In this document: piece after piece, positions 172 to 10,063 of the stretch
Layout: each line of letters opens with the position of its first letter
Numbering within the stretch: the first letter of the stretch is position 1
Assembly: GCA_910574745.1 (NCBI GenBank)
Contig: CAJTCE010000014.1
Span: 1 to 64,000, forward strand
Source of the DNA: Lachnospiraceae bacterium
Lineage (GTDB): Bacteria; Bacillota; Clostridia; Lachnospirales; Lachnospiraceae
Direction: 5' to 3'
Length of the DNA: 64,000 nucleotides
Translations under genes and position numbers: made by a program
The notes under the pieces: model-generated
Told to the model about the DNA's origin: nothing
The model's input: only the letters and a program-made list of their open reading frames with translations
The model's database searches: none

Positions 172-3100
172 TTATGAATCCGAGAGGCTATAAACCTCTG
201 CTACAGGGGACATAGGACTTTTTTGTCCAAAAGCGTCCACCGCCTTTACGTAATATTTATAAGTCTTATCATCCTCCACATCGCTGTCTCTGTACCAGCT
301 TGCATTTCTTCCCTCAATATCTGCGATTTTTCCGCTGTCCGACCTGCCGGAACCGATTCTGTAAAGCTCATATCCCACACAGTCGCCGCTTCTGCTGATA
401 TCCCAGCTTATGACCACAGTTCCTCCGTCGTCCTTAGCCGATACTGTTTCCGGGGCCGCCGGCGCCGTCCGATCCAGCGTATAGGTAACAATCTGTTCCC
501 CTGAATTGCCATCGGAATCCGTGATCCTGTACCTGATATCCAGATCTCCTTCCACAGAAAGCCCTGCAATATTCCAGTTATATACGGCATAAAAGGTTTT
601 CGCATCCAGATCTCTTTGCCCCAAAGGCGACGGGGTTATGGTAATCCATCTTTCCTCTGTCTTGTCATAATACTCCATGGTAACGGCATTTCCCTTACTG
701 CCTCCGCCGTTTTCAAAATGAACCTCCAGCTTTACGCTCTCTCCTCCGATAATCTCATAATCCTTCGGAAATACTGCCGTAATACGGGGCATAAAAACCA
801 CGCCGTCCATTCCCCGGCTTTTTTCGGACTCATTCCCTGCCTCATCCACCGCCATAACACAATAGGTATATACGGTATTTTCCAAAAGTCCGCTGTCCTT
901 ATAGCCTGTTTCAGCGCCGCTGTAAACCATTTCCCCGTCCCGGTAAAGACGGTATTCCTTTACCGCCACATTATCCCTGCTCTTTTCCCATTTCAAGGTA
1001 ATGGAAGAACCTGTCCGCTCTGTGATTTCCGGCGTTCCCGGCACGGAAGGCGCTTGGTCGTCCTCGGGTGTAGCCACTGTGCACTCCGGGGATGATGCCG
1101 CGCTTATTTTATCCGGATTATAGGGATAAACAGTATAAACATAGGTTTCTCCCGGCAAAAGCCCCGTATCCTTACAAGTGAGCTCTGTGGTTGTTCCCAG
1201 CCTTACCCCGTCACGATAAACGGCAAAGCCCTTTACCACGCCTTCTTCCCATTCCCCTTGGAAACGAAGAGTTGCCGATGTGACCGTAACCTCCTCTGCC
1301 GCAAGGGAAGAAACCGGCTTCGGGATAACGGCTCCCGGCGTAATATAAATAACTCTGTCCGCCAAAGCTTCCGGTCCGTAGGGAATGTCATAGCCGTCCT
1401 CTTTTCCGCTTCCTATGGAAAGCCCCGCAGTCAGCTCCAGGGTGGCAAAATGTATTTTCTGGCTGTTAGTAATTTTAATTGCCTGTTTCACGTTTGTTCC
1501 CGCCGGAGCGTTTTTCCGCCTGAAAATGGTATAATGCTCCCTAGTGGCCACAAAGCTTCTGCCGCCTCCAATGGAATTAAAATCTCCCGTAATCTCCAAC
1601 GTTCCGTCCGTAAGATACCCTTCATGGCCGGCAGTCCCTATAAAGCTTACGTCTCCCTTTACCAGCACATAGGTTTTATCATCCATGACAAATAAGCCCT
1701 GATTTCTCACAGTCAGCGCCTGCTCCAAAACCAAAGCTGCCTTGTCCGTATATACTTTTCCGTCCACGATCAACACGCCGGCACGAATGGCTTCATCCCC
1801 GCAATGAAGTTCCCCCTGCTCCCCTACGCTCAGGATTCCGTCTATGGCAATACTTCCTTCTGCGCTACAGCTTCCTTCCAGGATAACATTTCCCCCAAAG
1901 CATCCGTCCTTTAACCGGCCTATATCCTGCAAAACCACGCTGCCGCTGCCGGTTGCTTTCCTGCTCAAATCCTCCACACATCCCCCGATCAGTACGTTTT
2001 CCATAAAGGAAACGCCTTCCGGAGAACTGTTTTTAATTGCAAGATCATAAAGCATGATGGGCATTTCACTGTAAATACTCTGTTTTTTCTGCCCCATTAA
2101 AGTCATGGCTCCGCCAAATGCAAAAGCATTGTCGCCTATCTGCTGCAAATCTCCCGAAAGCTCTATGGAGCCCTTTATTAAATCCCCTGTAATATCCTCT
2201 TTTGCATCTATGATCAGATTGCCTTTTATAGCAACGCTATCCTCTTCATTCTCCATGAGAAGATGTCCTTCTCCCGAAGAATACAAATATTTTTTCTCAT
2301 CCGGTTCCATTTCCGAAATATCGGAATTATCCAGCCTCCTGGACTGGAAACGCAGATTTCCTTCTACGACCAGTCTGCCGCCGTTAACATTAACCCATCC
2401 GTCCTGCAAGATCAAATCGCCTTGGATGGTCAGCGTATGACCGTTTAAATCCAGCGTATCATCCAAAAGGGTAAAATCTCCTGCGGCAATATAATCCTCA
2501 GTCAGAGTAAAACCGTAAATGCCGCTGCCGTCCCCTATAGTCAGCCTGCATCCGTTGAGAATCAGTTTGTTTTTCCTGATCGTCTTTTCCGAATACACTC
2601 CTGCCGCGCTGTAATTTTGAAGCTCCAAAGTTCCGAAGGTAGATGTGCAGTCCACGGTCTGCAGACCGGTTCCGCTTAAAATTACCCTGTGGTCCGTGCC
2701 ATAAATCTGCTCCCCTTTATCCCTATAGTCCCCCTTTACCTCCAGAGTACCGAAAGAGAATTGCGAATCGGCGGTTTCTTTCATAAAATCTCCGTTTATG
2801 AGCAGATGATCATTTTCGTTCTGCATTCTGATGCCGAATGCGCTGTACCGGTTCGCCGGCACAATGCAGGTATCTCCCTGCACCTCCACCCGGGAGTTAT
2901 CCATGGCTAAAATACCTTCTATAAGCAGACTGCCACCCACCGAAAGATGAGCGTCCTTCACTTTAACATCCGCTGCTGTACTTGAACCGCCATAGTGTAA
3001 AACCTTGAAATTCCCGCCGATTTCCACATCTTCCTTGACTTCCATAATGGCGCTGTTCACAATGCCGCCCGCAAAATAATTGCCCTTCAACTGATCTGTG

Positions 3101-6100
3101 GAAGAAACAGACAGATATCCATTTATGTTCTGTCCCCTCTCAGTATCCACCTCTCCTGTTACACAGGGTTCCCCTTTAAAAGTCACACCTGCCGCACTGT
3201 TATTGGTAATTTTTAAACCGGCAATACGGGAACCGTCCAAAGAAGAGTTGGCAAACCATACGGTCTGTCCTTCTTCCCCGCTCAAAATCAGCCTGTGATT
3301 TCCCGATGCGGGAAAGCTGCATTTTTTCACAGATGCATAAGGCTCCACCTTCTCCTTCTGGACCAAATTTCCTTTTACCTCCAGAACCCCGTCCGTTAAC
3401 AGGCTGGATGTAGAGTAATAATAATCCGTATAATTGTAGGGCTTTCCCCAGGAAATGTAGAAATCCCCCTCTACCCGCACATAGTCCTCAGGCTTAGTCA
3501 TAAACAGATAACCGGTGGAAGTAGCTCCATCGTTTTCATCCCACATAGTATCGGGATTGCCCAGATAATAGCCGCCCTCTACAATAAGATTTCCGCCGTT
3601 TATATTCATGATGCCGTCCATCTGGATCAAATCGCCTTGAACAGTCAGCGTATGACCGTTTAAATCCATGGTTCCCGAGGTCAGTACCGCATTTCCTTCT
3701 ATTACCAGATCCTCCGTAAGAGTAAAACCGGTTATTCCTTCCTGGCCGAAATAAGTAACCGGACATCCGCTTTCATTGATCAGGCTGCCATAAGACAGGG
3801 GACTGTTAACACAAATTCCGTCCTTACTGCTGTTTCGAATAATAATTGTTTTAAAGTAAGAATCATTTGTTACGGAAACCGTCTGTTTCCGGCTGCCTCC
3901 TAAAATTAAAGCGGCATTGTAATTCGCCTTTCCCTGAAACGAAATATCCCCTCTAACCTCCAAGGCTCCGCCCTGAGAGCTCAATTCCAGCTTCAATTCA
4001 GAAATCCTGTAGTTTCCTTCTATCAACGCATAACTGCTGCCCGACTTCAAAATAATTCCCGCATAACTAAAGTCACTTTTTGCTTCCACATCTCCCTTTA
4101 CGGTCAGTTTTGCATCATAAAGGTTCAGATATCCGCCGGTTCCGTATTCAGGCACGCCCGTTAAATATATACTGCCGTCTACCACAAAGTCCTTATAAAC
4201 ATTCAGAACCCGCTGAATATACAAATCTCCCCCTAATTCATATTCATAATTCAAATTAAGGGTATCCAAAATAAGCATATCGCCATTATAGAATTCCCCC
4301 CATTCACTGTTATAGCCCGATTTGCACACACGGCCTTCAATATGCGATTCCCGTAAAGATTCACATTTTCCGTATACCTTATGCGCCCCTTCTATTACAA
4401 CACCTTCCGCCGAAGCATTGGTTATATACAGATTCTGGATATAAGAAAGCTTATCAAAGTTTTCCTGAAAATGAATGGTCTGCTTCTTATCCCCGCTGAT
4501 TAATACAGTATGGCTTTCCGAAGCATAGAAACCATAATTTGGAGCCTCCTCCCACTGATAGAAATTTCCTTTCAGCTCTAGACATCCTGCCGATAACTCC
4601 ACCGCCTTATACTTACCGGAATACTCATAAAAATCCCCTTCTACCAGAATATGGCCGTTCTCCCCCGCCATTTCCAGCTTTCCTTCACTGCCTCCATAGC
4701 TATAGCCGTTTGTTTCCTCTCCGCTCCTGGACTGGAAACGGTAATCTCCCTCTACAACAAGCCTTCCGTCTCCTATCACTACCGTTCCGCCACTGTGAAG
4801 GAAGCTTCCGCTAACCGTCAGAGTATGGCCGTTTAAATCCAGGACACCGCCTTTTAATACAAAATCCGTGGAGATATTTTGGTCCTCTTCCAGTATGAGG
4901 CCCGTTTCATTTACTATCTCCTGAACGGAAATTTTACACCCGTTTAAAACCAGCCGGTTCCACGCTCCGCTGCCATCCACCACAATTCCCTGAGAACTGT
5001 GGTTTTTCAATTCCAACGTCTGAAAGGATGCGCCGTTTAGCAGGTTTAAATGCTGTTCCCCTGCACCGGAAAGAATAACCCTATGCTTCCCCTTTGCACC
5101 AAAGGAACCGTCTACGGATACGTTTCCCTGACATTCCAGAATTCCATCCGTCAAATGATAAGGACTTGAAATTTTCTGGTAAAAGTCTCCTTCAACTAAT
5201 ACATAGGCTTCTTCTCGTGCCATATCCAGACCGTTGCTCTGGTTCCCCTCTTCATTTTCTATGGAAACATCGCCTTTTACATTCAGTCCGTTTCCATAAA
5301 CATGTACGCTTCCCCCGATTCCGGCGTCTCCCAAGACCTCCAGTCTGTCATATAAAGACAAATGACCCTTTTCATTTACCGTAAGCCCATCTCCAATGGT
5401 CAGGGGCGTCTTTATATCTACATCCATGCCGGAAGGCACGGTAATTCCCCCGTCAAAATAATCCTCTGTAAAGACCGTTCCATACCCTATGCCCAGATTT
5501 CCTGTAACGGTATTTCCGTTGGTGGTTATTTTTCCCGATACACAGGGATTATTTTCTAAAATAACGCCTTCTTCACTTTCGTTTTCAATGACCAGATTGG
5601 CAATCACGGAGGAATTGTTAAAGCCTGACTGCTCCATAAAAAGTCTCTGCCCTTTATTTCCTGTCAAGTACAGGGTAAATCCTTTATCGCTTCCCATGCC
5701 GGATGTATAAAAGTTCCGGGAGCTTTCCGGCGCATGCTGGACAAAGTCTCCTTTTAATTCCATAATTCCCAGATAAATTCCATTCGTCTGGACCAAAGCC
5801 TCCGTGGAAAAATTCCCCATAACGAGAAGATAGCCGTTTTCGCCCGTCATGGTAAAGGCCCCTTCTCCCGATATACGGTAATCTTTGCAGACGACCACCC
5901 TGCCCTCTCCTATTTCCAAAGTCCCGCCGGTCTGGATGAAATCGCCGTACACATAAAGGGTGTGCCCCTTTAGATCCAGCTTTCCTTCCTCCAAAACCAG
6001 GTTGTTTACCACCATATCTTCCTGCAAAACCCAGCCTTCCCCAAGGGTTAAATCCTCTTCCTCATAATGCGTTTCTCCCCGCAAAAACGCATTTATAAAA

Positions 6101-6372
6101 GCATCTATTTCTTCCCCGCCATGGGTCTTAACTTCTTCGGAAGATTCCGCTTCCATAGAAATGCCTGCTGGAGAATTTGCTGATATCTGCACTTCCCCTG
6201 ATAAATTTCCTGTTTGTTCTCCCGCCATGCTCCCTGCGTAAACCTTCGCCGTGCCCATAGAGGCAAAGCTGGAAAAGGGAAGCATTGTTATAATCAACGC
6301 CGCCGCTATTCCCTGGCGCAGTTTCCCCTTTGTTTTCCATGCATCCTTAAAAATCTTTTTTCTTTTGTTCAT
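172..6372 (-). CDS. Giant secreted repeat protein with C-terminal fibronectin-III-like domains
   Basis: About 2066 residues. A basic N-terminus and a hydrophobic stretch ending near residue 48 (FASMGTAKVYA) form a signal peptide. Four modules of about 380-400 residues follow. Each opens with a motif of the type LDLNGHTLTVxGD (near residues 130, 509, 901 and 1306) and continues with strands of the type LxVEGDY, LVEGDFY, LExKGNF and ILSGxxxQT; this short-strand, Gly/Asn-rich pattern suggests a beta-solenoid. The last ~400 residues hold two Fn3-like domains (about 1670-1850), an Ig-like segment and a third Fn3-like domain (about 1970-2060). No LPXTG, SLH or choline-binding anchor is visible, so it may be secreted or held non-covalently. 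The second ATG (MNKRKK) is chosen because GAGGG lies 9 bases upstream of it. It diverges from the agrBD genes. The ligand or function is unknown; an adhesin or matrix role is inference. Confidence 0.85.
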   Translation of the reverse strand: MNKRKKIFKDAWKTKGKLRQGIAAALIITMLPFSSFASMGTAKVYAGSMAGEQTGNLSGEVQISANSPAGISMEAESSEEVKTHGGEEIDAFINAFLRGETHYEEEDLTLGEGWVLQEDMVVNNLVLEEGKLDLKGHTLYVYGDFIQTGGTLEIGEGRVVVCKDYRISGEGAFTMTGENGYLLVMGNFSTEALVQTNGIYLGIMELKGDFVQHAPESSRNFYTSGMGSDKGFTLYLTGNKGQRLFMEQSGFNNSSVIANLVIENESEEGVILENNPCVSGKITTNGNTVTGNLGIGYGTVFTEDYFDGGITVPSGMDVDIKTPLTIGDGLTVNEKGHLSLYDRLEVLGDAGIGGSVHVYGNGLNVKGDVSIENEEGNQSNGLDMAREEAYVLVEGDFYQKISSPYHLTDGILECQGNVSVDGSFGAKGKHRVILSGAGEQHLNLLNGASFQTLELKNHSSQGIVVDGSGAWNRLVLNGCKISVQEIVNETGLILEEDQNISTDFVLKGGVLDLNGHTLTVSGSFLHSGGTVVIGDGRLVVEGDYRFQSRSGEETNGYSYGGSEGKLEMAGENGHILVEGDFYEYSGKYKAVELSAGCLELKGNFYQWEEAPNYGFYASESHTVLISGDKKQTIHFQENFDKLSYIQNLYITNASAEGVVIEGAHKVYGKCESLRESHIEGRVCKSGYNSEWGEFYNGDMLILDTLNLNYEYELGGDLYIQRVLNVYKDFVVDGSIYLTGVPEYGTGGYLNLYDAKLTVKGDVEAKSDFSYAGIILKSGSSYALIEGNYRISELKLELSSQGGALEVRGDISFQGKANYNAALILGGSRKQTVSVTNDSYFKTIIIRNSSKDGICVNSPLSYGSLINESGCPVTYFGQEGITGFTLTEDLVIEGNAVLTSGTMDLNGHTLTVQGDLIQMDGIMNINGGNLIVEGGYYLGNPDTMWDENDGATSTGYLFMTKPEDYVRVEGDFYISWGKPYNYTDYYYSTSSLLTDGVLEVKGNLVQKEKVEPYASVKKCSFPASGNHRLILSGEEGQTVWFANSSLDGSRIAGLKITNNSAAGVTFKGEPCVTGEVDTERGQNINGYLSVSSTDQLKGNYFAGGIVNSAIMEVKEDVEIGGNFKVLHYGGSSTAADVKVKDAHLSVGGSLLIEGILAMDNSRVEVQGDTCIVPANRYSAFGIRMQNENDHLLINGDFMKETADSQFSFGTLEVKGDYRDKGEQIYGTDHRVILSGTGLQTVDCTSTFGTLELQNYSAAGVYSEKTIRKNKLILNGCRLTIGDGSGIYGFTLTEDYIAAGDFTLLDDTLDLNGHTLTIQGDLILQDGWVNVNGGRLVVEGNLRFQSRRLDNSDISEMEPDEKKYLYSSGEGHLLMENEEDSVAIKGNLIIDAKEDITGDLIKGSIELSGDLQQIGDNAFAFGGAMTLMGQKKQSIYSEMPIMLYDLAIKNSSPEGVSFMENVLIGGCVEDLSRKATGSGSVVLQDIGRLKDGCFGGNVILEGSCSAEGSIAIDGILSVGEQGELHCGDEAIRAGVLIVDGKVYTDKAALVLEQALTVRNQGLFVMDDKTYVLVKGDVSFIGTAGHEGYLTDGTLEITGDFNSIGGGRSFVATREHYTIFRRKNAPAGTNVKQAIKITNSQKIHFATLELTAGLSIGSGKEDGYDIPYGPEALADRVIYITPGAVIPKPVSSLAAEEVTVTSATLRFQGEWEEGVVKGFAVYRDGVRLGTTTELTCKDTGLLPGETYVYTVYPYNPDKISAASSPECTVATPEDDQAPSVPGTPEITERTGSSITLKWEKSRDNVAVKEYRLYRDGEMVYSGAETGYKDSGLLENTVYTYCVMAVDEAGNESEKSRGMDGVVFMPRITAVFPKDYEIIGGESVKLEVHFENGGGSKGNAVTMEYYDKTEERWITITPSPLGQRDLDAKTFYAVYNWNIAGLSVEGDLDIRYRITDSDGNSGEQIVTYTLDRTAPAAPETVSAKDDGGTVVISWDISRSGDCVGYELYRIGSGRSDSGKIADIEGRNASWYRDSDVEDDKTYKYYVKAVDAFGQKSPMSPVAEVYSLSDS

Positions 6373-6836
6373 AATCATATTCCCTCATAAGTATTTTTGC
6401 CTTTTAGGGCTTTTTCTTTTGTTTATCATAAAGAAACCCTTTTGGCATTCCTTTGCATAAACCGTCCTTTTTAGACAGTTACGTATATCTTACTATAAAC
6501 AAATTTTAAATGCTTACCATATATGGAAAGAAACGGCACTTTTTTAAATTTTTTTCAACTTTTTTATTTTTTTTTGCAAAATGGATGCAATTTTCTATAA
6601 GCCATAAACCTTTATTATAACCCGAAACCAAGCAATCCCCACATTTTCCTACACAAAGCGTTAATTATCGGGACTGAAAGTTAAAAAAAGCAAAAAAATG
6701 ATGCGCAGTTATCAAAAAAAGTGCAGATGAAACTTTTCAGTCCCCAAAAACAGCCATTCGTGTAAGAAATTTTTTCTATTCCAAATTTTTGGAATATACT
6801 GGATATATCCAAATCAGGAAAGGAGTTATAAGAATT
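6373..6836. other. Divergent intergenic region, surface protein / agrB
   Basis: 464 bases without a gene, AT-rich, with long T and A runs around 6540-6580. It must carry the promoters of both flanking genes. Visible structure: a 10-bp palindrome CCATATATGG at 6517-6526; a long inverted repeat with arms at 6670-6682 and 6731-6744 (GGGACTGAAAGTT against its complement with one bulge, about 48 bases apart); a palindrome at 6778-6795; and GGATATATCC at 6801-6810. The last two lie within 60 bases of the agrB start and are plausible operator sites. Confidence 0.6.
6778..6800 (+). promoter_or_regulatory. Candidate agrB promoter -10 with overlapping palindrome
   Basis: TATACT at 6795-6800 is a good -10 hexamer; the corresponding -35 position (6772-6777, TTTTCT) is poor, as expected for an activator-dependent promoter. 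The perfect palindrome ATTCCAAA-TT-TTTGGAAT (6778-6795) fills the spacer and touches the -10. Binding by the LytTR regulator encoded nearby is inference; I could not identify a clean LytTR consensus repeat. Confidence 0.4.
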
Positions 6837-7439
6837 GTGGAGAAACTGATTAAAAAAATCGATATGGGATATCAATTGGATAAAAGAGATATGGATTTTC
6901 TGAAATTCGCTTATAAAGCGCTTTTTTATGATTGTTCCAAAATGCTTATTATGTTTCTCTTCGCCCTGGCCACTCATCGGGGGACGGCATGTCTGTTAGA
7001 CCTTTTTCTGCTTGCCGGTCTTCGCAGCAACCATGGCGGAATTCATTTAAAGCATTACTGGAGCTGCTTCGCATTATCTTTTGCGGTGTTAATCTTTTCC
7101 TTTTCTATGCCAACGCTGGTAACTGTTCAAAAACCGGCCATGCTGGCAGCATTGCTGTTTTGTATGCTCATTAATTATTTGATCGGACCTCTCAGAAGCA
7201 GGCAATGTCATGTGAAAGATATAAGTATCTTTAAAAAGAACCAGATAAGAACCTTTGCAATTGTATTCGCTTATCTGATCTCTTTATATCTTCTTCCTGC
7301 TTCTTATACACTGGCTACCGGATTTTGGACAATCATAGCGCATTCTGCACAATTAATTGTAGCAAAATGCATGCAACATTTTACGGAAAGGAGAAATTTT
7401 AATGAAGAAACTGACTCAAAACTCACACAAACTACTTAA
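6837..7439 (+). CDS. agrB: AgrB-type peptide-processing membrane protease
   Basis: 200 residues from a GTG start at 6837, chosen because AGGAG lies 11 bases upstream; an earlier in-frame TTG has no such site. AgrB is an integral membrane cysteine protease that trims the AgrD propeptide and helps form its thiolactone ring. The family signature is visible: a basic N-terminal helix, then RSNHGGIHLKHYWSC with His70 and Cys77 seven residues apart, the spacing of the catalytic pair in staphylococcal AgrB. Several hydrophobic segments follow, and the last ~15 residues are hydrophilic. Its 3' end overlaps agrD by 38 bases, indicating co-expression. Length is normal for the family. Confidence 0.93.
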   Translation: MEKLIKKIDMGYQLDKRDMDFLKFAYKALFYDCSKMLIMFLFALATHRGTACLLDLFLLAGLRSNHGGIHLKHYWSCFALSFAVLIFSFSMPTLVTVQKPAMLAALLFCMLINYLIGPLRSRQCHVKDISIFKKNQIRTFAIVFAYLISLYLLPASYTLATGFWTIIAHSAQLIVAKCMQHFTERRNFNEETDSKLTQTT

Positions 7440-7548
7440 TTCAATCGGAAAGGCTATCATTGAATTAGGTCTCGCTTATTCTACGTTTATTTTTATTGGC
7501 GGTTGGTGCATAATACTTTTCGGCGAACCTGAATTTCCTCAAGAATAA
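7402..7548 (+). CDS. agrD: AgrD-type cyclic autoinducer propeptide
   Basis: 48 residues. The ATG at 7402 is preceded by GGAAAGGAG and lies inside the 3' end of agrB in another frame. Three parts match AgrD propeptides: an amphipathic N-terminal helix (MKKLTQNSHKLLNSIGKAII), a core around IGGWCIILF, and an acidic tail GEPEFPQE. One Cys (residue 36) followed by four residues (I-I-L-F) gives the five-membered thiolactone ring typical of the family; the ring would end at Phe40 before the cleaved tail. The exact N-terminal trimming point cannot be read from sequence. A strong hairpin follows directly. Confidence 0.88.
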   Translation: MKKLTQNSHKLLNSIGKAIIELGLAYSTFIFIGGWCIILFGEPEFPQE

Positions 7549-7553
7549 CGCTT

Positions 7554-7593
7554 AAAGGAGTCAACATTCCAAACAATGTTGACTCCTTTTGTT
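7554..7593. terminator. Convergent terminator between agrD and agrC
   Basis: A perfect 15-bp stem (AAAGGAGTCAACATT at 7554-7568 paired with 7575-7589) with a six-base loop, flanked by T-rich sequence on the plus side and an A/T-rich context on the other. It lies between two convergent genes and can serve both. Confidence 0.85.
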
Positions 7594-7600
7594 AATTTTT

Positions 7601-8869
7601 CTATTTTAAGCAAAGCACTACATTAAAAACAATCTGGTCTATTCCTTCATTACTAACAAAAATTGCCTGTGTTCTTCCTTCATATCTATCGACAATCCGA
7701 TTTACGTTGGCAAGTCCTACTCCTCTACCTTCTCCTTTACTGCTAACACCTTCAAGAAACATATGCTGTATTTTTTCTGATTTTGTCCTATCACAGGGAT
7801 TTGCAATTTTTATAATCAAAATATGCTCATCTTGTGTAACAGCAAAATCAATCATTTTTATTTCTTTGTCGCTAACCTCGTCCATAGCATTATCAAATAA
7901 GTTTCCAAAAATTTCAACAAAATCTACAAAAGATATATGTTCCTCCACTCCATCAACATCTATCTCGTATTTAACCCGGATTCCTTTACCTTCCGCCTGC
8001 TCAATTTTGCTATAAATAAAACCTGCAAGTATGGAAGAAACATCGTCGCGCAACAGTCTATTTGTATTATTCTCTGCCAATAGTTCTAAGCAATATTCAT
8101 TCTGCCACTTTACCAGTTCTTTCAAGTCAGTTGCGACTGTATTCATGCTAAAAACTGCATTGATGTGATTATTAAAATCATGCTGTCTCCTTCGAACTTG
8201 TTTGATTAAGTCCTTGTAAACTAAATTATATCTTTCATATGCCAGTAGTTCTTGTTGCCTCTGCTTATTTTCAAATTTTTCTTTTTGCCATTGGAAAAGT
8301 ACTATAGAAATAATTATGGCAAGTACAGGTAACCCGATTACATCTTTCCAAGATATGAAATTAACTGTTTTAAAAAAGTTAATTATGAGCATACATACTA
8401 TTGAAGCAATCAATAGCACTAATTTTCCATAGCCCCCATTAATCAATACTATTTCAATGTATCGGTTTATTTTCAGATATCTATTCATAATCAACAGTAC
8501 TATACTGGAAAATATTATAATACATAAAATACCGATTTTATCAATGCGATTTACACGAAAAATACTGTAAACAACTATACTTCCAAACAGTTGTAATATC
8601 CCAAGCAATACAATATCCATAACAACATAAACAACCGCATCAAAGATTCTATCTCCATACTCCAGCTTACATACAATAATCAGTCCCAGATAGATCAGAT
8701 TTACAAAAGCCCCGTGTAGCCATCCTGCCTCAATGACGGATGCAATAATCAATGCCAGCGCCACATAAACCATAGTAGCAATGCCCGGTCTTTTATTTCC
8801 TTTATGTAATACATGCAGTCCTATTAAAATTGTAATGATTTCAAATAACAGATAAACCCGTTCAACCAT
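7601..8869 (-). CDS. agrC: AgrC-like sensor histidine kinase (GHKL family)
   Basis: 422 residues. Six or so hydrophobic segments fill residues 1-195 and form the membrane sensor. A linker follows, then the phospho-acceptor motif RRRQHDFNNHI (His230) and a GHKL-type ATPase domain with the N box EIFGNLFDNAMDE and the glycine-rich GEGRGVGLANV near the C-terminus. It is expected to sense the cyclic peptide made by the convergent agrBD genes and phosphorylate the LytTR regulator encoded just upstream. The start codon overlaps the end of that regulator gene by 8 bases, with GAGGA upstream, indicating translational coupling. Assignment to AgrC rests on architecture and location. Confidence 0.88.
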   Translation of the reverse strand: MVERVYLLFEIITILIGLHVLHKGNKRPGIATMVYVALALIIASVIEAGWLHGAFVNLIYLGLIIVCKLEYGDRIFDAVVYVVMDIVLLGILQLFGSIVVYSIFRVNRIDKIGILCIIIFSSIVLLIMNRYLKINRYIEIVLINGGYGKLVLLIASIVCMLIINFFKTVNFISWKDVIGLPVLAIIISIVLFQWQKEKFENKQRQQELLAYERYNLVYKDLIKQVRRRQHDFNNHINAVFSMNTVATDLKELVKWQNEYCLELLAENNTNRLLRDDVSSILAGFIYSKIEQAEGKGIRVKYEIDVDGVEEHISFVDFVEIFGNLFDNAMDEVSDKEIKMIDFAVTQDEHILIIKIANPCDRTKSEKIQHMFLEGVSSKGEGRGVGLANVNRIVDRYEGRTQAIFVSNEGIDQIVFNVVLCLK

Positions 8870-9587
8870 TCGTTAGTTCCTCATATACCTTTTTCCTGAA
8901 TGTTCTTCCTATCTCAAAGCTTCCGTATTCGCTCTTCAGTATGATCTTATTTCGGATGACGTCTACCTTATGTATATATCTTTTATTTATAATCGTATTT
9001 CTGTTGCATTGAAAAAAATGACTGCCGGGCAGATGATTTTTGATATCCGATACCGACTTATAGAAAAAACTGTTAATACCGTCCACACTTTTTACAATGA
9101 CTTTCCTGTCTTTGTAATAGACATAGACAATTTCATTGATCCGCTGCGGCCAGACACAGCCTTCATTTTTCAAGTAAATATAATTGTCCTCGTCCATGCG
9201 CTGGGGAACCTTCAACGCCTTTTCAATAACCTGTTCCACATCTTTTATGGCATAAGGCTTTTCCAGGTACTGATAACAATGCAGTTCGTCATACGCAAAC
9301 ATTTTAGGACTGTCCAAAGAAGTGGTAATAATAACCGGAGCGAACTCATATCGCTTCATATTCCGTAAAAAACTGATAAATTCAAGCCCGGAAGTATCAT
9401 GGACATAACTTTTATCCAGAATAATGTCCACGATAAACAGATCAAAAAATCTGTCTGTAACCATCATACAGGCATCCACATATTGGGTAACGCAGGTTAC
9501 TTCTGCATTCAAATCCATATTTTTAACGGCCTTTTCCAGTGAATATGCCGCAACTGTATTATCCTCAAGAATCAATACCCTTTTCAT
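8862..9587 (-). CDS. agrA: AgrA-like response regulator (REC-LytTR)
   Basis: 241 residues from the ATG that lies 9 bases after GGAGG (MKRVLILED); an ATG three codons upstream abuts the Shine-Dalgarno directly and is less likely. The receiver domain covers about 1-125, with acidic pocket LEDN (E8, D9) and phospho-acceptor Asp54 in FIVDIILD. The C-terminal LytTR DNA-binding domain (about 138-241) has the typical run ending in FFQCNRNTIINKRYI and FRKKVYEEL. Cytoplasmic transcription factor, presumably phosphorylated by the overlapping kinase. Likely targets are agrBD and perhaps the divergent giant protein (inference). Confidence 0.9.
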   Translation of the reverse strand: MKRVLILEDNTVAAYSLEKAVKNMDLNAEVTCVTQYVDACMMVTDRFFDLFIVDIILDKSYVHDTSGLEFISFLRNMKRYEFAPVIITTSLDSPKMFAYDELHCYQYLEKPYAIKDVEQVIEKALKVPQRMDEDNYIYLKNEGCVWPQRINEIVYVYYKDRKVIVKSVDGINSFFYKSVSDIKNHLPGSHFFQCNRNTIINKRYIHKVDVIRNKIILKSEYGSFEIGRTFRKKVYEELTNG

Positions 9588-9625
9588 CCTCTGCATCCTC
9601 CTGCTTTATCTGATGGTTAGTTTAT

Positions 9626-9728: not shown

Positions 9729-10046
9729 TCACATTCCTAATAGTGCGTCCACCACTCTATAAAATCTCTTGACCTCTTCCGGCGTCAACTTCGCTATCTT
9801 TTCTTCGTATTTTGCCAGTCTTACCAGATAGCCTTTTTTAAGATTTCCACAGAGCAGTTCATCTGCTGTTGCATTGAGCACGTCCGTTATTAGTACAAAT
9901 GAATCAATACTCGGTTTTCTTTCTCCTCTTTCAAGCATTCCGATATAAGGAACGCTTAAATTTGTTTTCTCCGCAAGCTCTTCCTGCGACATCGATCTTG
10001 AGATCCGCTTCATTCGTATTCTTTTTCCCATATCTTCCAAATCCAT
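9729..10046 (-). CDS. XRE-family HTH transcriptional regulator
   Basis: 105 residues. The start is the ATG (MDLEDMG) 8 bases after GGGAGG. Residues about 5-62 form a Cro/C1-type helix-turn-helix with the signature SMSQEELAEKTNLSVPYIGMLERGERKPS. A short helical tail (about 70-105) may mediate dimerisation. It resembles SinR-like single-domain regulators. Located upstream of agrA-agrC but separated by a terminator, so a regulatory link to quorum sensing is only suggested by position. A palindrome overlapping its own -10 suggests autoregulation. Confidence 0.88.
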   Translation of the reverse strand: MDLEDMGKRIRMKRISRSMSQEELAEKTNLSVPYIGMLERGERKPSIDSFVLITDVLNATADELLCGNLKKGYLVRLAKYEEKIAKLTPEEVKRFYRVVDALLGM

Positions 10047-10063
10047 CGGCAAGACCTCCCAAC

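Follow-up and report, generated by a model that had tools for sequence, protein, structure and literature searches.

The locus studied here raises two questions: is the short open reading frame that overlaps the end of agrB a gene for a signal peptide, and do its neighbours form with it a system that makes and senses that peptide? The analysis covered a window of 64,000 nucleotides from a gut Lachnospiraceae bacterium (contig CAJTCE010000014.1), and the features concerned are listed in Table 1. We consider it very probable that the locus encodes all parts of an agr-type system for quorum sensing by peptide, with agrB-agrD lying tail-to-tail with agrC-agrA, and that this system makes a CIILF thiolactone, sensed by the convergent kinase.

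Table 1. Features of the agr locus, in window coordinates
Feature	Position	Strand	Description
Upstream block of agrB	6703..6770	+	candidate promoter/AgrA-binding region; near-identical in the nearest sister species, flanks diverge
agrB	6837..7439	+	membrane peptidase/cyclase, GTG start; conserved catalytic-type His70 and Cys77 (HLKHYWSC)
agrD	7402..7548	+	48-aa precursor: leader ~1-32, candidate exocyclic G33-G34-W35, predicted ring C36-I-I-L-F40, C-terminal recognition tail G41-E-P-E-F-P-Q-E48
Hairpin between agrD and kinase gene	7554..7589		T-rich arms; -22.2 kcal/mol, z -7.4
agrC-like sensor histidine kinase	7601..8869	-	several N-terminal membrane helices and GHKL/HATPase_c_5 domain; convergent with agrBD
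agrA-like response regulator	8862..9596	-	receiver and LytTR DNA-binding domain

The frame runs from an ATG at 7402 to a stop at 7548 and encodes 48 residues (MKKLTQNSHKLLNSIGKAIIELGLAYSTFIFIGGWCIILFGEPEFPQE). It is preceded by a good ribosome-binding site (GGAAAGGAGAAATTTTA-ATG; the letters before the frame are GGAAAGGAG), and its 5' part shares 38 nt with the end of the agrB frame (7439). A frame that is this short, that overlaps agrB and that yields zero Pfam or NCBIfam family matches even at E = 10 could be taken for a spurious overlap of agrB rather than a gene. Comparison with the nearest sister species, within a genus sample of nine genomes (Lachnospiraceae), revealed differences at 23 of ~32 synonymous sites and at 12 of ~112 non-synonymous sites (Fisher p = 3e-11). 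This pattern of strong purifying selection rules out a spurious frame over agrB and, together with the ribosome-binding site, the kept frame and the conserved core, leaves that reading with hardly any probability. In four sister species the frame is uninterrupted; two of them have AgrDs 83% and 51% identical to that of the window and the other two match in the core. Their cores are GTW-CIIFF-GEPEFPQE (nearest sister), GQY-CFLCF-GEPEFPEV, GPH-CLFFF-GEPEIDIPEE and GTF-CMLFL-GEPDIDIPEE; in a fifth sister (G007) agrB lies at a contig end. The stretch 7402-7548 is thus a genuine gene and not a chance frame. A preliminary description of this DNA had proposed a 48-residue gene overlapping agrB that gene finders would easily miss and that should be kept in sister strains, and it was right on each count.

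The preceding gene product, AgrB (200 aa), matches Pfam PF04647 at 72.2 bits (cut-off 23), and the GTG at 6837 is a better placed start than the mechanically assigned TTG at 6789. Its His70 and Cys77 are invariant in 24 relatives, the active-site region R-x3-GGxHxxxYxxC is conserved, and by analogy to S. aureus AgrB these two residues are predicted to be of the catalytic type. The predicted structure is all-helical with seven helices (pLDDT 82). Searches of the PDB with AgrB by sequence and by fold returned no relative and hence no solved AgrB against which to check the active site.

The product of the short gene is, judged by homology, AgrD, because it adjoins AgrB (72 bits with Pfam) and because the alignment of its core, [C/S]-4 residues-G-E-P, with 27 relatives needs no gaps. 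We refer to such peptides, which end in [S/C]-x-x-x-[F/L]-G-E, as GE-type; to identify their ring residues, the peptides were aligned with G-E as the anchor. The other marks of an AgrD are there as well: a small selected gene beside agrB, a Cys or Ser that precedes the cut by four residues, a short, amphipathic leader (helical moment 0.63 over residues 2-19) and an acidic C-terminal tail, GEPEFPQE, in which G41, E42, P43 and P46 are invariant in the genus. Relative to the cut, Cys36 has the same position as the cysteine of the canonical AgrD of the same genome (CIILF-GEPEFP versus CLWLC-HQPEFP), and both peptides follow a common plan of a nucleophile with four residues, one further residue and [Q/E]-P-x-x-P. 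A ring formed by C36-F40 therefore follows from homology. Synteny, selection and the gap-free comparison with related AgrD sets thus support both the AgrD identity and the Cys-Ile-Ile-Leu-Phe ring put forward in the preliminary description. Most likely, the product is cut and closed into a greasy five-residue ring, CIILF, that acts as a cell-to-cell signal. AgrB would cleave AgrD after Phe40 by means of His70/Cys77 and would couple the Phe40 carboxyl to the Cys36 thiol, which would give the hydrophobic thiolactone, and removal of the leader would leave a short tail, probably such as GGW-, GW- or W-. A literature search of incomplete coverage found no report of GGWCIILF, and the CIILF strings that it returned belong to unrelated proteins.

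The exocyclic Gly-Gly-Trp that had been proposed is in part upheld. Gly at -3 and Trp, Tyr, Phe or His at -1 before the Cys are kept in 5/5 genus members, which argues for a retained tail; the N-terminal cut itself is unreadable from sequence. Were AgrD cut right up to Cys36, full removal of the tail would be expected, from work on Listeria, to lead to an S-to-N acyl shift, and a head-to-tail cyclo(CIILF) would be the lasting form of the signal (PMC11297923). Pentameric tail-less thiolactone AIPs do rearrange within minutes at pH 7, with a half-life of 1.3 min for that of Listeria, and a similar shift has been reported for Ruminiclostridium cellulolyticum (PMC11297923). However, the conserved residues before the Cys in the five genus members speak for a tail, and most relatives use Ser; the lactone analogue examined in the same study was much slower to rearrange, with 48% in 22 h (PMC11297923). 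The cyclopentapeptide is for these reasons regarded as rather unlikely, and the tailed thiolactone is preferred.

The preliminary description had called the signal unusually hydrophobic. Averaged over the four residues that follow the nucleophile, the Kyte-Doolittle hydropathy reaches 3.9 in the window peptide; the corresponding means are 3.20 (GE group), 1.78 (Gln-Pro types) and 1.13 (20 characterised AIPs from PMC12312760). The wording therefore holds against characterised AIPs and fails within its own group, where such values are the norm: the ring is among the most hydrophobic known AIPs, yet ordinary for a GE-type peptide. That it defines a distinct specificity group is plausible from the sequences, as the core of the nearest sister already differs (GTW-CIIFF versus GGW-CIILF) and the kinase diverges faster in its membrane part than in its catalytic part.

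Downstream, the convergent genes encode a polytopic sensor with a GHKL-type kinase and a regulator with a receiver and a LytTR domain, the make-up of AgrC and AgrA. The kinase scores 63.5 bits (E 1.9e-17) with the staphylococcal AgrC equivalog model NF046015, below its cut-off of 500, and by its sequence is best described as AgrC-like and not as a staphylococcal AgrC. The hairpin between the gene pairs is a probable bidirectional terminator. Compared with the nearest sister, dN is 0.26 for the first 190 residues of the kinase and 0.085 for the remainder, a difference of about threefold; the regulator has 0.08 and AgrB 0.11. A membrane part that evolves faster than the catalytic part is the pattern expected for a signal receptor. 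Of the 30 GE-type loci whose downstream sequence is long enough to judge, 28, with the window as one of them, have a convergent kinase homologous to that of the window; in G283 the kinase is on the same strand, and G304 has none within ~5 kb. A convergent kinase was also found in 10/10 loci checked of order-level relatives with a Trp-Gly-Glu (WGE) version of AgrD, whereas the two canonical agr loci examined have their kinase on the same strand. This conserved convergent arrangement makes the kinase the most likely receptor of the window peptide, synteny being the basis of the pairing. The membrane part of the kinase would detect the extracellular peptide, and activation of the LytTR regulator by the kinase would follow, which would probably turn on the agrBD promoter, a positive feedback, as well as other genes. 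A ring peptide this hydrophobic might instead act mainly on competitors, as an antimicrobial or as a cross-inhibiting AIP of the kind well known between staphylococcal species (PMC12312760). The conservation of the kinase/LytTR pair in nearly all loci and the absence of an accompanying immunity or export gene make this very improbable, and a self-signal remains the preferred function.

The block at 6703-6770 upstream of agrB comprises 68 nt, and a search for other copies found its core once only in the genome. It may be a site for the regulator, but was observed in no more than two species. A promoter scan gave sites no more numerous than in shuffled sequence. Upstream of agrB, at 6671-6743, there is also a spaced inverted repeat (GGGACTGAAA ... 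TTTTCAGTCCC, ~50 nt apart), mostly kept in the nearest sister. Divergent from agrB lies a gene for a 2068-aa surface-type protein with fibronectin III domains (172-6378, minus strand), which is found beside agr in the nearest sister too (77%) and is a possible agr target. On the other side, upstream of agrA, a small HTH regulator (RstR/Cro-like; 9729-10052, minus strand) has conserved counterparts close to agr in four sister species (97, 70, 50 and 50% identity).

The extent of the GE-type group was surveyed by AgrB alignment against 397 genomes of the family, and every small frame with a ribosome-binding site after agrB was read. The relatives are for the most part known from draft or metagenome-assembled genomes. 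The alignment of 27 GE-type AgrDs contains no gaps from the ring to G-E, and the ring nucleophile is Cys in 8 of these peptides and Ser in 19; with L157, G164, L162 and the viral contig L146 the totals rise to 10 and 21. Since most carry Ser, lactones are predicted for them. A seven-residue Cys ring (CASFLFF) considered for L020 was dropped, as the G-E alignment makes its nucleophile a Ser. A six-frame scan covered the 28 loci that had been retrieved through their AgrB: 26 of them contain the motif [SC]-4 hydrophobic-G-E, in every case adjoining agrB and never elsewhere, and the other two have the near-variants CTFFF and SFWFF-EE. A profile built from AgrD sequences alone picked up three loci that had not been used to train it (in G1060 and on two contigs of G164): one adjoins agrB, one lies directly after AgrB at a contig end, and the third, at the start of a contig, faces a convergent kinase.

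In the tree the GE-type AgrBs fall into one clade, supported at 96/89, which lies next to the WGE types and away from the Gln-Pro types and in which the genus of the window is a Cys-only subclade (100/99). The WGE version of the order-level relatives and the Tyr/His-Gln-Pro version of other Bacillota both mix Cys and Ser. Within the GE clade 4-5 changes between Cys and Ser are needed, 3-4 of them forced by well-supported branches, and the nucleophile has therefore been exchanged repeatedly. On balance, we favour the view that the Lachnospirales hold a large, largely unannotated agr class with tail-to-tail agrBD/agrCA, all-hydrophobic five-residue rings and several switches between thiolactone (Cys) and lactone (Ser), of which the window represents one Cys dialect.

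Several relatives deserve separate mention. A leader motif, C-x-x-C-[LIM]-A, is conserved in many GE AgrDs of other genera (alignment A4) and absent from the genus of the window. In L041 (G104 contig C170) the AgrD, NTHCPFIIIGEPKVPE, is encoded ahead of its AgrB, and its sequence suggests a ring of six residues, provided that the cut falls before G-E; at least one other agrBD locus, L162 (CLLVF-GEP), is present in that genome. On G008 contig C1 (L016/L129) a canonical AgrB/AgrD (ECFYIFHQPELPE) is situated ~2.5 kb from a GE-type agrBD, with two kinases, so that two agr systems stand side by side. A GE-type AgrB and a Ser AgrD (LISMVLFGEYPYPSREDYP) are also encoded at 3959-4653 of L146, a predicted viral contig (IMGVR_UViG_3300035422_000236), where they are possibly prophage-borne or part of a bacterial flank. 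Searches with AgrB gave one relative among viral contigs and one weak match, a 4.7-kb record, in a phage collection; a search of a plasmid collection with AgrD gave no match.

The mining of gut bacteria for cyclic lactone autoinducers depends on family models, one of which is TIGR04223 (NCBIfam quorum_AgrD). At E up to 10 this model detected 1/27 GE-type peptides (E 0.005) and did not match the window AgrD, while at E up to 0.01 it found 20/20 Gln-Pro-type and 12/14 WGE controls; for the GE-type peptides Pfam gave nothing beyond matches at chance level. Because nearly all of the GE group is missed, probable peptide signals of Lachnospiraceae go unlisted. The repeated exchange of Cys and Ser in one AgrB clade moreover offers a natural test of the tolerance of AgrB for closure by a thiol or a hydroxyl, and of whether ring stability (thiolactone versus lactone) was selected.

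The genome has a second, canonical agr locus (L001; G000 contig C23, 14843-18367) with kinase, AgrD (SACLWLCHQPEFPE) and AgrB on one strand, and the bacterium therefore probably runs two peptide signals. In this second locus agrD precedes agrB, whereas in the window it follows. Clostridial Gln-Pro AgrDs of the TIGR04223 type (e.g. CLWLC-HQPEFP) share with the window peptide the nucleophile with four residues, followed by x-[Q/E]-P-x-x-P; the window peptide differs in its Gly at P1' and Glu at P2' and is not detected by that model. The staphylococcal AIP-I precursor (...CDFIM-DEVEVP) has an acidic tail with E at P2'. The window locus resembles staphylococcal agrBDCA in the short leader-core-tail precursor beside AgrB, the five-residue ring closed by Cys, the E at P2' and the kinase with a LytTR regulator. 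It differs in its tail, GEPEFPQE, in a ring without polar residues, in having agrCA convergent on the opposite strand and in that no RNAIII was identified there. Ser-lactone AIPs are known from S. pseudintermedius, Enterococcus faecalis (GBAP) and C. difficile agr2 (PMC12312760). Most relatives of the window AgrD have a ring Ser and are accordingly predicted to form the same O-ester ring; the window peptide itself has Cys, and the rings of the relatives are hydrophobic pentapeptides followed by G-E. Closest in character among characterised AIPs is that of Listeria monocytogenes, [CFMFV], likewise an all-nonpolar five-residue Cys ring, although its sequence is another one, its agrBDCA is a single operon and it may be tail-less (PMC11297923).
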